Of a DNA stretch of 9,741 nt, positions 3,597 through 9,474 are shown one piece after another. How positions within the stretch are numbered: position 1 is the stretch's first letter; each line of letters opens with the position of its first letter. Position numbers and translations under genes: made by a program. The stretch comes from a bacterium (GTDB lineage: Bacteria; UBA9089; CG2-30-40-21; SBAY01). The notes below the pieces were generated by a model. That model searched no databases. It was not told where the DNA came from and saw nothing but the letters and a program-made list of their open reading frames with translations. The DNA lies in assembly GCA_040757115.1 (NCBI GenBank), contig JBFLYA010000138.1, forward strand, positions 1-9,741, in the 5' to 3' direction.

Positions 3597-5570
3597 TTAC
3601 GCGGCGGCACGAATGAGTGTTTCTTCTTTTTTTCCATTAGTCATTTGAAGTCCCAATCGTTGTTCTGTGGCTCGGATGATCGTTCCAATCATCTCACTGT
3701 AAGATATTCCTTCAATCTTTGCCATTTTTGCCAGGTGTCCATCCCAGCACCAACCTGGGTTAGGATTTACCTCAAGCAATTTAGGATTACCATCTGAATC
3801 AACCCTCCAATCAAATCGGCAATAATCCCTGCACTCCAGGCGCTCATATAACTTTAAACAACATTCCACAATGGATTTTTTTGTCTCCTCTGGCAACTGG
3901 GCAGGAATGGATTTGATAACCCAATATGGCGAGTCTGGAAGCCATTTTGCTTCATAGCCGCATATTTTAGGCAGTCCTTGTGGAAGTGCTGAGTAATCCT
4001 CCTCGATAATGGGTAAGATTGTATAAAATTCTGGTGGATTTCCTATTATCCCTACACTCAAGTCTTTTCCTGTCAGGAATTCTTCAACAAGAATAGGTTT
4101 GTCATACCCAAATTTCTCACGGATTTCTGAAATAGCGTTTACCAGTTCCTCAATATTATTTGCCACACTCCGCTGTGTTATACCAAAACTGGAGTCCCCA
4201 AAGTTGGGTTTTGTAATTACCGGGAATTCAAAAGGAATCTCAAAAGTGGTATCTTCTGGTTTGATAAAGAAAGCCTCTGGAACTGGAATCTCCATCTCTT
4301 TTGCAATTCCACGCACAAGTGATTTATCATAGCAGTAAGCAAGACATTGTGGGCCGGCGCCTGTATATGGAATATCAAGCATTTCCATCAAAGAAGGGAT
4401 ATGAAGTTCTTTTCTCGGGTCGTTAGCATATCCTTCATCACACAAATTAAAAACAAAATCTATTTGAGGTTTTAGTTTTACCAACTCCTGATACAAGGTA
4501 TCGTGGTTATTAAGTGGTATAAACCGATAACCATGAAGTTCTCTTAAGGCATCTTTTAATTGGTCAATTGTATAGAAATCATCGTCATCAAAGATGCACA
4601 TTGGTTTTAATGGGTCGGGTTTTGACGGGTCACCTAAAATTACGGCTATATTTCTTAGTGATTCTTTTGGTTTTTTCTTAATGGGTGTCCATTCTTTTCT
4701 AACTATAGAGCTGACGAGGATGCGTCGTTCCATCATACCGAGGTCTTGATTTCGATGGGAATCCGTTATTATTTCTCCATGAAAGGCAATATTCGTAAAT
4801 CCTGCGGATTTGAGAAGTTCTTCCATACTTTCTCGGGTGTAAAGTCTTTCTGCATAAAATTGGTCTGTAATCACACCCTTTTCGACATGAGTTACTACCT
4901 CTCGTGAGATTAGACGCTGTTTATCTTTTGAAAGCGAACGCTCTCGACAAACAAAATGCTTTTTGTCTATCCATTCCCATGACCTTGGTTGAAATTGTTT
5001 TTTTAAATATTTTCCATCTGCCACATCGATAAGGATTCGTCCCCAGGGTTTCAGGACTCTAAAGATTTCCTTGAGCACCTGCAAATCATCCTGAATTGTT
5101 TCAAAATAGCCGAAGCTGTTACCCAGAATTACCACCACATCGAATGTATCGGGTGAAAATGGGATTTTTCTGGCATCGCCTTCTTTAAATCTGATATTCA
5201 AGCCTTCTTTTTTTGCTTGTGTTTTTGCCTTTTGAATGAGGTAATAGGAGCGGTCTAAGGCATCAATATCGGTTATACCACGGCTGGCTAATTCAAAGGT
5301 GTGTCGTCCCTGTCCGCAACATAAATCTAAAATTCTATCTTCTGGCGACAGTCTCAGGATTTTTGAAAATAAATCAACCTCCTTCGCGGTCAAGTTTTCA
5401 TCCTCAACTACATCCGCATCTGTTTTTAAATAAATTGAGTTGAATATCCGTCGCCACCAATCCGGCTGAACATACTCCTCCAAATTGTGCAAAGGACCAA
5501 ATGTCCTTTTACATCCTAATGTTACCTTTTCTTTACGAAATGGTTTGACATTAGATACTTTTATTTTCAT
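3597..5570 (-). CDS. Fused SAM-dependent methyltransferase / D-Ala-D-Ala-ligase-like ATP-grasp protein
   Basis: This is a 657-residue cytoplasmic two-domain protein. Residues about 50-290 are a class I methyltransferase: motif I ILDLCCGQGRHT (80-91), the acidic strand end at D106, GDARKIPF (131-138) and DVVVILGNSFGYF (144-156). Residues about 305-640 are an ATP-grasp ligase of the D-Ala-D-Ala ligase type: FNLCDEG (374-380), PYTGAGP (401-407), ATP-binding KPNFGDSSFGIT (454-465), YEAKW (539-543) and metal ligands D587, E600 and N602 in LLEVNPNPG. An ungapped alignment from memory to E. coli DdlB across the C-terminal part gives S281 to G611 and Y216 to W543, and the DdlB E15 region is not recognisable. 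ATP and metal binding look intact but the D-alanine sites do not, so it probably joins another acid and amine. It leads the leftward glycosyltransferase cluster. Its TAA stop (3599-3597) lies in the inserted element. Confidence 0.86.
   Translation of the reverse strand: MKIKVSNVKPFRKEKVTLGCKRTFGPLHNLEEYVQPDWWRRIFNSIYLKTDADVVEDENLTAKEVDLFSKILRLSPEDRILDLCCGQGRHTFELASRGITDIDALDRSYYLIQKAKTQAKKEGLNIRFKEGDARKIPFSPDTFDVVVILGNSFGYFETIQDDLQVLKEIFRVLKPWGRILIDVADGKYLKKQFQPRSWEWIDKKHFVCRERSLSKDKQRLISREVVTHVEKGVITDQFYAERLYTRESMEELLKSAGFTNIAFHGEIITDSHRNQDLGMMERRILVSSIVRKEWTPIKKKPKESLRNIAVILGDPSKPDPLKPMCIFDDDDFYTIDQLKDALRELHGYRFIPLNNHDTLYQELVKLKPQIDFVFNLCDEGYANDPRKELHIPSLMEMLDIPYTGAGPQCLAYCYDKSLVRGIAKEMEIPVPEAFFIKPEDTTFEIPFEFPVITKPNFGDSSFGITQRSVANNIEELVNAISEIREKFGYDKPILVEEFLTGKDLSVGIIGNPPEFYTILPIIEEDYSALPQGLPKICGYEAKWLPDSPYWVIKSIPAQLPEETKKSIVECCLKLYERLECRDYCRFDWRVDSDGNPKLLEVNPNPGWCWDGHLAKMAKIEGISYSEMIGTIIRATEQRLGLQMTNGKKEETLIRAAA
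3601..3608. repeat. 8-bp target duplication, right copy
   Basis: GCGGCGGC, identical to 3234-3241. On the minus strand it encodes the last alanines of the methyltransferase/ligase (GCC GCC GC followed by G of the element). Confidence 0.8.
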
Positions 5571-5672: not shown

Positions 5673-5701
5673 TTGACAAAAAAAAGATATTATGATATAA
5701 T
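5673..5701 (+). promoter_or_regulatory. Perfect-consensus sigma70-type promoter for the rho unit
   Basis: TTGACA (5673-5678) and TATAAT (5696-5701) are separated by 17 bases, matching the consensus at all 12 positions. The start should be near 5708, leaving a leader of about 150 bases before the first gene. Confidence 0.8.
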
Positions 5702-5707
5702 TTTAAT

Positions 5708-5857
5708 TAATGGAAAGTATGACCAACCCAAAAATCTTTCCCAATTAAAATCAATTTTTCCATAAAGTGCTTCTCTAATTCTTTTTAAATATCCTGAGGA
5801 ATAAAAAGATTACCCTGTTATTTAAGGATGGACACTAAATTTTGGGAGAAATAATAT
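5708..5857 (+). promoter_or_regulatory. Long, G-poor 5' leader of the rho transcript
   Basis: This roughly 150-base leader lies between the predicted transcription start and the first gene. Its first part (about 5718-5800) is rich in A, C and U with few G, the composition Rho prefers for loading. ATGGAAA (5710-5716) can pair with TTTCCAT (about 5756-5762). Rho is known to control its own leader in E. coli, so feedback is plausible here, but no defined attenuator or T-tract terminator is visible. GGGAG at 5844-5848 is the ribosome site for the ATG at 5858. Confidence 0.4.
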
Positions 5858-6529
5858 ATGCCCACCAGGGAACAAGGCATAAAAAAAGACCGTGGAACAA
5901 AAATTGACATCTTGAGTTTTTTTTATAAATATCCAATAAAAAACTTACCTGTGGTAGATAAAAATAAATGTATTATTGGAATTCTGGTAAAAGAGAGTTT
6001 AATTGCATCATCTACGGTCACTTCAAATTTGACCACACCACTGACAAAAGTCATTTCAGACCATCTTGTCCCGGTGATATTAGAAAAAGATTATCAAATC
6101 TTACAAGGGTTACTTCAAAACTTTAAAAAAGTTACGACTATCCCGGTTATTGATGTTAAAGGTAGGGTGGTTGATTGGTGGAATAGATTTGATTTAATCT
6201 GTGCCTGGGAAGGATACCCGGACTTAGCTACCCAGCACTTTGAAACAATTTTCGCTAATTTCCCTTATCCTGTGGTGATTGTTGATAATAAATTAAAAAT
6301 AACTTATATGAATTTAGCCGGTATCAATCTGACAATCACCGGTCGGGGAAGAAAAGTAATCGGAAAATCTTTGAATGAAATCTTTCCTGTGGTGAAGGAT
6401 ATTAGTGATTCTTCTATTATCGATGAACGGATACTCATAGAAGGAGAAGAATTTAGATATGATAGTGTGCCTATTAAGAAAGAAGAAACAATAGTAGGTG
6501 CCATATATTTTTTAAGGAGGAAAATATAG
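5858..6529 (+). CDS. CBS-PAS domain protein coupled to rho
   Basis: This 223-residue soluble protein has no signal or membrane segment. Residues about 17-118 look like a pair of CBS modules, with [20 protein letters not shown] (28-47) and [20 protein letters not shown] (93-112). The first module seems short at its N-terminus. Residues about 127-222 look like a PAS domain: [19 protein letters not shown] (128-146), then ITYMN (148-152) and [11 protein letters not shown] (167-177). CBS modules commonly bind adenine nucleotides and PAS domains bind small ligands or mediate contacts, so a sensor or adaptor is likely. There is no enzymatic or DNA-binding output domain. Upstream in-frame TAA at 5852 limits the start to 5858 or later; GGGAG sits nine bases before it. 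Its stop TAG overlaps the GTG start of rho by one base, which suggests both proteins are made together. Confidence 0.75.
6514..6520 (+). promoter_or_regulatory. Strong ribosome binding site of rho
   Basis: AAGGAGG, eight bases before the GTG at 6529, is a full Shine-Dalgarno match lying in the last codons of the CBS-PAS gene. It decides the GTG start of rho. Confidence 0.85.
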
Positions 6530-7791
6530 TGGAAGGACAACTTAACTTATCAGATTTACAAGCAATGAGCATTTCAAAACTAAGCGACTTAACCCATCAA
6601 TTAAAGATAGAAGGGGTTAGTGGGATGAAAAAGCAGGAGCTTATTTTTGCCATTTTACAGGCTCAAGCGGCAGAAAAAGGGCTTTTGTTTGGAGAAGGAG
6701 TATTAGAGATATTACCTGATGGATATGGTTTTTTGAGGTCACCAAAATATAATTATCTTCCTTCACCAGATGATATTTATATTTCACCTTCTCAGATAAG
6801 AAAATTTAGTTTAAAAACCGGGGATACGGTTTCTGGACAAATAAGGCCACCAAAAGAAAATGAGAAATTCTTTGCCCTTTTAAAGGTAGAGGCAGTCAAT
6901 TTCGATGACCCTGACAGGGCGGCTGATAGGATATTGTTTGATAATCTTACCCCATTATACCCGGATAAAAGAATTCATTTAGAGCGAGAATCAAAAGAGG
7001 TCTCAATGCGCATTATGGATTTACTTACCCCTATTGGCAAAGGACAACGAGGATTAATTGTCGCACCGCCACGCACCGGGAAAACAGTATTATTACAAAA
7101 ACTGGCTAATTCAATTACGACTAACCATCCGGAAATTAAATTAATCGTTTTGCTTATCGACGAACGACCTGAGGAAGTTACAGATATGGAAAGGTCAGTT
7201 AAGGGTGAGGTGATAAGTTCGACATTTGACGAGCCAGCGAGTAGGCATGTTCAAGTCGCGGAAATGGTGATTGAAAAGGCAAAAAGATTAGTCGAACATA
7301 AATATGATGTTGTCATCTTGCTGGATAGTATCACGCGATTAGCCAGGGCTCATAATCAGGTAGTTCCTGCCTCTGGAAAGGTGCTTTCTGGTGGTGTTGA
7401 TTCAAATGCCCTACATCGGCCAAAACGATTCTTTGGTGCGGCACGAAATATCGAAGAAGGCGGAAGTTTAACCATTCTTGCTACGGCTTTAATTGATACA
7501 GGAAGTAGAATGGATGAGGTTATTTTTGAGGAATTTAAGGGAACGGGGAATATGGAGGTCCTTTTAGACCGCAGTTTAGTTGACCGTAGATTATTCCCTT
7601 CTATCAATATTTCCAAATCAGGAACCCGCCGAGAAGAGTTACTTTTAGAAGAAGACGACTTGAATAAGGTCTGGCTACTGCGTAAAGCCATTACCCCATT
7701 GAATCCAGTAGAAAGTATGGAATTAATCGTTGAAAAAATGCACTCCACACAAAATAATAAGGAGTTCTTAATGGCTATAAACAGGGGATAA
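6529..7791 (+). CDS. rho: Transcription termination factor Rho
   Basis: This 420-residue protein is the usual length for Rho, the hexameric RNA-dependent ATPase that ends transcription. In order: Rho N-terminal helical domain (about 8-50); cold-shock-like RNA-binding domain with GVLEIL (57-62) and DGYGFLR (64-70); ATPase core with Walker A APPRTGKT (179-186), [13 protein letters not shown] (208-220) and Walker B VVILLDS (261-267). The Q-loop region [20 protein letters not shown] (279-298) is followed by [15 protein letters not shown] and [19 protein letters not shown]. All catalytic and secondary RNA-binding landmarks are intact, with no inserted domain in the N-terminal half. It starts with GTG overlapping the stop of the CBS-PAS gene. 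The downstream 8-bp duplication and element begin eight bases after its stop. Confidence 0.98.
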
Positions 7792-8067: not shown

Positions 8068-8838
8068 ATGTTTAAATTTCCTCTTCTACCAATTAGATTC
8101 TTAGATATAATTGAGATGTTATTAATCGCCTGTGCCTTTTATTGGCTATTTATCTTGATAAAGGGAACAAGGGCGGTGCAAGGAGTAAAAGTCCTTGTCT
8201 TCCTTATTGTTGCTTCCTTTGCCGCCAATCTATTCCAATTATATACCATCGATTGGATACTGACAAGCCTATGGACTATCCTACCGTTATCGTTTGTTAT
8301 CTTATTTCAGCCAGAATTAAGACAGGTAATTGGCGAAATTGATAAAAACTATATTTTAAGAAAATTTTTTAAGAATGAAAGCCGATTGATTCCAGAAATT
8401 GTAAAAGCAATAATGTCATTATCAAAGGAACAATTAGGAGCATTAATTGTTTTAAAACAAAATATAAGCCTGAAAAATTATATCGAAACAGGGGTAAAAA
8501 TAGATGCAGAAGTAAGTTATGAACTACTTAAGACAATATTTACCCCTCATAGTCCACTTCATGATGGTGCAGTTATTATTCAAGGTGATAAAATAATTGC
8601 GGCAAGCTGTGTTTTGCCATTAACTCAAAATCCGGATGTTGTTACTCCACTTGGCACAAGACATCGCGCCGCACTTGGGCTTTCCGAAGAAACAGATGCC
8701 TTAATCCTGGTCGTGTCTGAAGAAACAGGTAATATATCCATTGCCTTAGATGGCAAGATGCGTGGTAACCTGGATGAAGAAAGCCTTACTCAAATGCTTA
8801 CCTGGTACAAAGCAAAAGAAGGACAAAAAGAAGGGTAG
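8068..8838 (+). CDS. cdaA: Membrane-bound diadenylate cyclase CdaA (DacA)
   Basis: This 256-residue enzyme condenses two ATP into cyclic di-AMP, a second messenger tied to potassium, osmotic and cell-wall balance. Three hydrophobic segments lie at about 14-31, 40-58 and 66-80, with FQPELRQ (80-86) leading into the cytoplasmic DAC domain. The DAC catalytic motifs are both present: HDGAVII (165-171) holding the DGA triad, and GTRHRAALGLSEETDA (196-211) holding RHR. Length and layout are those of CdaA rather than DisA. The ATG at 8068 is preceded by AGGGTG seven bases away, a modest ribosome site; MFKFPLLPIRFLDIIEML is a typical start for the family. The next gene encodes a YbbR protein, the known membrane partner and regulator of CdaA, which supports the call. 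The mobile element just upstream may affect how much is transcribed from the rho promoter. Confidence 0.96.
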   Translation: MFKFPLLPIRFLDIIEMLLIACAFYWLFILIKGTRAVQGVKVLVFLIVASFAANLFQLYTIDWILTSLWTILPLSFVILFQPELRQVIGEIDKNYILRKFFKNESRLIPEIVKAIMSLSKEQLGALIVLKQNISLKNYIETGVKIDAEVSYELLKTIFTPHSPLHDGAVIIQGDKIIAASCVLPLTQNPDVVTPLGTRHRAALGLSEETDALILVVSEETGNISIALDGKMRGNLDEESLTQMLTWYKAKEGQKEG

Positions 8839-9075: not shown

Positions 9076-9474
9076 ATGACACATTTACACATTTACCGTT
9101 GGATTATCAATAACCTCTGGCTAAAATTATCTTGTTTTTTATTAGCTGTGCTATTATGGTTTTCTACAAGTGGTGGAGTATCTATAATTAGAGATTTTAG
9201 TATTGCCATTACACTGGAAAATATCCCAAAAAATTTAATAGTATCCTCACTAACGACAAAAAATGTATTTATTACTGTGCAAGGGAATAGAAGTGTTATT
9301 TTGAAATGTCAGGCATCTGCTTTTTATCTCCCAATTGATTTATCAAAGAGTAATAAACCAGGAACATATTCATATAACCTGATTCCGGATGAAGTTTATA
9401 CCCCTACTGGAATTAAGGTTATTTCCATAGAACCACGAAAGGTAATACTTGCCTTAAGGGAAAAGAAGAAGTAG
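9076..9474 (+). CDS. Single-domain YbbR protein, likely CdaA regulator (CdaR-like)
   Basis: This 132-residue protein is anchored in the membrane by one N-terminal segment, WLKLSCFLLAVLLWFST (about 15-31), typical of YbbR proteins. One outward-facing YbbR repeat follows: DFSIAITLENIPKNLIV (40-56), VFITVQGN (64-71) and the closing IKVISIEPRKVILAL (113-127). CdaR of Firmicutes binds CdaA and adjusts cyclic di-AMP output but has several YbbR domains; a single repeat is unusual there though seen in other phyla. The position right after cdaA supports the same role. The ATG is set by AGGAG at 9064-9068. The phosphoglucosamine mutase gene glmM, often next in this cluster, does not follow within the window. 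Confidence 0.85.
   Translation: MTHLHIYRWIINNLWLKLSCFLLAVLLWFSTSGGVSIIRDFSIAITLENIPKNLIVSSLTTKNVFITVQGNRSVILKCQASAFYLPIDLSKSNKPGTYSYNLIPDEVYTPTGIKVISIEPRKVILALREKKK

Follow-up and report, generated by a model that had tools for sequence, protein, structure and literature searches.

A CBS-CBS-PAS sensor-like protein descended from a Fis-type HTH regulator: linkage of its gene to rho in three little-known phyla

The stretch of DNA analysed here (9,741 nt of contig JBFLYA010000138.1, hereafter the window) contains the transcription termination factor gene rho, whose product carries the Rho_N, Rho_RNA_bind and ATPase domains, preceded by a gene for a small CBS-CBS-PAS protein that we call gene X (Table 1). 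Gene X lies between rho and a sigma-70 promoter that matches the consensus at all 12 positions. The window has no second site of this quality, and chance alone would give 0.03. The TAG stop codon of gene X (6527-6529) and the GTG start codon of rho (6529-6531) have one base, a G, in common, and the ribosome-binding site of rho is located inside gene X. In these respects, including the limits of the reading frames, our reading of the sequence agrees with a preliminary description of the locus, which had placed gene X between a perfect-consensus promoter and an overlapping rho.

Table 1. Features of the window discussed in the text (positions in the window).
Feature	Position	Strand	Remarks
Divergent 657 aa protein, N-terminal methyltransferase and C-terminal D-Ala-D-Ala ligase-like ATP-grasp part	3597-5570		
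Sigma-70 promoter	5673-5701	+	TTGACA 5673-5678, 17 nt spacer, TATAAT 5696-5701, extended TG; 12/12 match
Conserved leader element, GGAAAGT..ACCAACC(C)AAAAATCTTTCC, also given as GGAAAGT...ACCAACCAAAAATCTTTCC	5712-5741	+	conservation in f1
Gene X, soluble CBS-CBS-PAS protein, HTH-less member of the CBS-PAS-(Fis HTH) family	5858-6529	+	223 aa
Shine-Dalgarno sequence of rho, AAGGAGG, within gene X	6514-6520	+	read from sequence
rho, transcription termination factor	6529-7791	+	420 aa, GTG start; TIGR00767 707.7 bits
Two nested imperfect inverted repeats between rho and cdaA	7806-8009		arms 28 nt and 25 nt
cdaA-type diadenylate cyclase gene, downstream of rho	8068-8838	+	TIGR00159 235 bits
YbbR-like gene	9076-9474		follows cdaA after rho in f1

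The window's family (f1) comprises four of the genomes compared (G000-G003), two of which (G000 and G001) make up the window's genus. The promoter is kept in 4/4 of these genomes, with small changes in the -10 element (G001, G002 and G003 compared), and so is a leader element of 29-30 nt directly after it, just past the predicted start site, which occurs in exactly one copy per f1 genome, at this operon, and is missing from the phylum's 15 remaining genomes. Promoter and leader element are conserved despite near-saturated synonymous sites between the two genera of the family. In the window's lineage, gene X and rho are probably co-transcribed from this one conserved promoter. The arms of the leader element can pair, forming a weak hairpin whose fold is not clearly better than those of shuffled sequences, and a stable leader structure was rejected (z 0.39). 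Also rejected were a known RNA element, as no Rfam match was obtained, and a rut-like C-rich, G-poor leader that would hint at Rho autoregulation, as 3-21% of stretches score as well. The one-base overlap (TAGTG) is restricted to G000 and G001; 82 bp separate gene X from rho in G002, and 200 bp in G003. The overlap on which translational coupling had been proposed is therefore present in the window's genus, but because it is confined to that genus, the coupling itself is not conserved. As a separate observation, the inverted repeats between rho and cdaA resemble a small non-autonomous mobile element, and their GTAATGGGTCAGT motif recurs as an inverted pair near cdaA in G007 (L131), an order-level relative.

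The product of gene X scored 24.1 bits against the Pfam CBS profile (cut-off 24) and 22.2 bits against PAS (cut-off 22.6); with scores at or just under the cut-offs, the CBS/PAS assignment is borderline from sequence matches alone. The tandem CBS (Bateman) module is represented by a Pfam match at cut-off for the first CBS unit (CBS1) of the window protein and by two CBS stretches in L034 and L039. In a model predicted by AlphaFold2 (mean pLDDT 80), a PAS fold accompanies two CBS-like units. Residues 117-221 of this model match the CitA PAS domain (8bjp; Z 13.1, rmsd 2.7, 103 residues) in a search with whole models that was dominated by PAS hits and so probed the CBS and HTH regions very little. 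We found no output domain in the window's own protein.

Gene X is present as a single copy in 17 of the 19 genomes of the window's phylum, and 11 of the 16 genomes with resolvable linkage carry it upstream of rho. In ten of these (G000-G003, G006, G007, G008, G010, G011 and G015) the two genes are on the same strand. In G005, the last bases of one contig and the first of the other, about 60 in number, are shared between the gene X contig and the rho contig, so the two genes adjoin there too. G004, where gene X was not found, and G013 were left out of the linkage count because contig borders make linkage unresolvable. The commonest order is argS-X-rho, and gene X is co-directional with rho in every linked case. 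In families f4 (G009, G014 and, by contig start, G016) and f8 (G017), ssrA precedes rho, and gene X instead adjoins miaA, recO or gatA (neighbors named from sequence), which indicates that the pairing is not obligatory. The replacement of argS-X by this tmRNA gene can be seen at L115 (4646-4995), L116 (5729-6075) and L118 (3092-3435). In G018, the gene downstream of gene X is convergent. Family f7 keeps argS-rho without gene X; in G012, from which gene X is absent, argS directly adjoins rho. The argS gene has gone from the string in f1.

Relatives elsewhere were sought by a profile search that covered 386 genomes, was extended to both further phyla with matches and scored only the best six candidates per genome. 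Full-length gene X members came only from the window's phylum and from two small ones (G036 and G183; G047 and G329). A second genome set, largely overlapping the first, gave no further members. Further members may exist, given this limit on candidates and the thin coverage of well-sampled phyla, each represented by a few genomes. In all four outside members, gene X lies about 1.57 kb upstream of rho and co-directional with it, with two genes between, and argS has also gone from the string in G047. Partial CBS or HTH matches in 18 genomes served as a control, and none of these matches lay near rho. In f5, too, a gene intervenes between gene X and rho (L041 6292-6726, L043 9905-10330); it encodes a degenerate GGDEF protein in which the GGDEF motif itself is missing. 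This protein is similar to the product of the first gene between gene X and rho in G047, over the C-terminal half of that product (hhalign E 0.0045; blastp 2e-4 to 4e-3, with a very small database), and a GGDEF-like intervening gene may therefore be ancestral. The genes that intervene in G036 and G183 have no recognizable kinship to it. Judging from these sequence comparisons, gene X is a vertically inherited, single-copy regulator located near rho in three little-known phyla.

The members differ at their C-termini. Families f3, f5 and f6 and the two outside phyla have members with a Fis-type HTH there; HTH_8 scores are above the cut-off in the f3, f5 and f6 members, G047 and G183, and just below it in G036. 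The HTH is absent from the window protein and from f1, f2, f4 and f8. Members of f3 have lost the PAS part instead and kept the HTH. No conserved operator was recognized upstream of argS in the HTH-bearing families f3 and f5. The forms without the HTH occupy two clades of the Rho tree, f1+f2 and f4+f8. Because relatives in three phyla end in a Fis-type HTH, gene X descends from a CBS-PAS-HTH one-component regulator that is like PrdR but for the AAA+ domain, and the absence of an output domain is thus derived by loss. The earlier statement that the protein has ligand-binding modules and no output domain therefore stands for the window copy, a CBS-CBS-PAS protein, but describes a lineage-specific loss and not the family as a whole, which includes HTH-bearing relatives. 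Comparison of the members shows the ancestral form to be CBS-CBS-PAS-Fis HTH, encoded in an argS-X-(GGDEF-like)-rho string. In HTH-less pairs, dN/dS is about 0.07-0.17 for gene X and 0.02-0.09 for rho; by this measure, purifying selection acts on the protein even without its HTH, and loss of the HTH began no decay. The pairing with rho is not unique to the window's genome, being kept in its phylum and in two others, and this wide conservation, together with purifying selection on the HTH-less protein, removes the objection of uniqueness that the preliminary description had raised against its own proposal of a Rho modulator.

The ligand was considered through the CBS residues and the neighborhood. 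In adenosine-binding CBS pairs, a G-h-h-[ST]-x-x-D motif holds the ribose. At this position, the window's CBS1 reads GILVKES, with neither S/T nor D, so that it has no evident site for adenine nucleotides, and its second CBS unit (CBS2) reads DWWNRFD, where the motif is half kept: the D is present and an N replaces S/T. The S and D are found in CBS1 of some relatives, and the CBS ligand residues are weakly conserved among gene X members overall. Although cdaA follows rho in the window, this adjacency is restricted to f1. We found no DAC domain in f4, f6, f7 and f8 of the window's phylum, and f4, f6 and f8 keep gene X without a detected diadenylate cyclase. Because gene X is kept in lineages without a detected DAC domain and cdaA neighbors rho only in f1, c-di-AMP was rejected as a general ligand.

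Overall, gene X is best read as a sensor or regulator for which Rho is a candidate partner only. The explanation that we tentatively favor, at a probability of roughly 0.45, is that gene X is a selected regulator of CBS-CBS-PAS-HTH ancestry. In HTH-bearing members, the CBS/PAS part would most likely bind a small ligand, and the protein would most likely adjust transcription across its own string of genes, among them rho. In the window's lineage, where the HTH has been lost, the protein would, by analogy with DarB, most likely still sense a ligand and act accordingly through contact with another protein, for which Rho would be the leading candidate. Nearly as likely, because two families keep gene X at a distance from rho, is that the sensor has some other target and that the argS/rho neighborhood is merely an inherited, unchanged housekeeping string. 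The string does include argS, which is unrelated to termination, gene X sits by miaA, recO or gatA in f4 and f8, and slow gene-order shuffling in these lineages would suffice to keep it near rho elsewhere. This is harder to reconcile with an order, gene X upstream of rho, that survives across three phyla despite the departure of argS in f1 and G047 and despite extra genes between gene X and rho in some genomes, or with the unfailing co-directionality of the two genes when linked.

It is unlikely, in our estimate, that gene X binds Rho directly and that a CBS/PAS ligand alters Rho activity or assembly, as the preliminary description proposed. The depth of the linkage across three phyla, the single promoter and overlapping reading frames in the window's genus, the persistence of purifying selection after HTH loss and the precedent of DarB, which binds Rel in a ligand-dependent manner (PMC7900238), would all be consistent with such contact; yet gene X stays in f4 and f8 though the linkage is gone, the ancestral form had a DNA-binding output, and the one-base overlap is limited to one genus. 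We give slightly less credence again to the full version of this scenario, in which a former regulator of the rho operon, having lost its HTH, is now a dedicated metabolite-sensing protein partner that controls cellular Rho itself. Very improbable is a role of the upstream cistron as a mere leader that sets Rho synthesis through translational coupling, to which the stop/start overlap and internal Shine-Dalgarno sequence in G000 and G001 might point, but which fits neither the 82 and 200 bp gaps in the sister genomes nor purifying selection on the protein sequence itself.

Rho is usually seen as constitutively active and autoregulated, and to our knowledge few cellular proteins adjust it. A sensor kept by rho in three phyla would offer a concrete handle on whether termination is tied to metabolite sensing. 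In addition, the series of forms in which the HTH is present, lost with the linkage to rho kept, or lost with the linkage gone constitutes a natural experiment in how the output of a regulator changes.

Among known systems, PrdR, a sigma-54 activator of proline reductase genes, is the best NCBIfam match (NF041552) for gene X and for most of the HTH-bearing relatives tested, with scores of at most 56 bits against a cut-off of 795 bits. It has in common with the HTH-bearing relatives an N-terminal CBS-PAS sensor part and a C-terminal Fis-type HTH, and one f5 member matches it over two stretches with the AAA+ part missing. PrdR has a central AAA+ ATPase, whereas the gene X family is without any, and the window protein is also without the HTH; the AAA+ sigma-54 interaction domain gave no match in any member scanned (proteins of 199-311 aa). 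A sensor joined directly to the HTH without AAA+ is known from PrrA/RegA, short Fis-HTH regulators in which the sensor is a receiver domain; in gene X it is a CBS-PAS part, and the window copy is without the HTH. AcuB (9s4y, 9s50) has a tandem CBS module like that of gene X, although the fold match is weak; it carries an ACT domain where gene X has PAS, and we know of no link between AcuB and rho. In the open-access literature, we found no paper linking a CBS protein to Rho. A parallel to the HTH-less form in the explanation we favor is DarB/CbpB, a stand-alone CBS receptor of c-di-AMP, which in Bacillus subtilis is a two-CBS protein that binds the regulator Rel ligand-dependently (PMC7900238). 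Gene X differs from DarB/CbpB in its added PAS domain, its HTH-regulator ancestry and its persistence in lineages without a detected diadenylate cyclase, but the two are alike as small soluble tandem-CBS proteins without an output domain, and in f1 a diadenylate cyclase gene follows rho.
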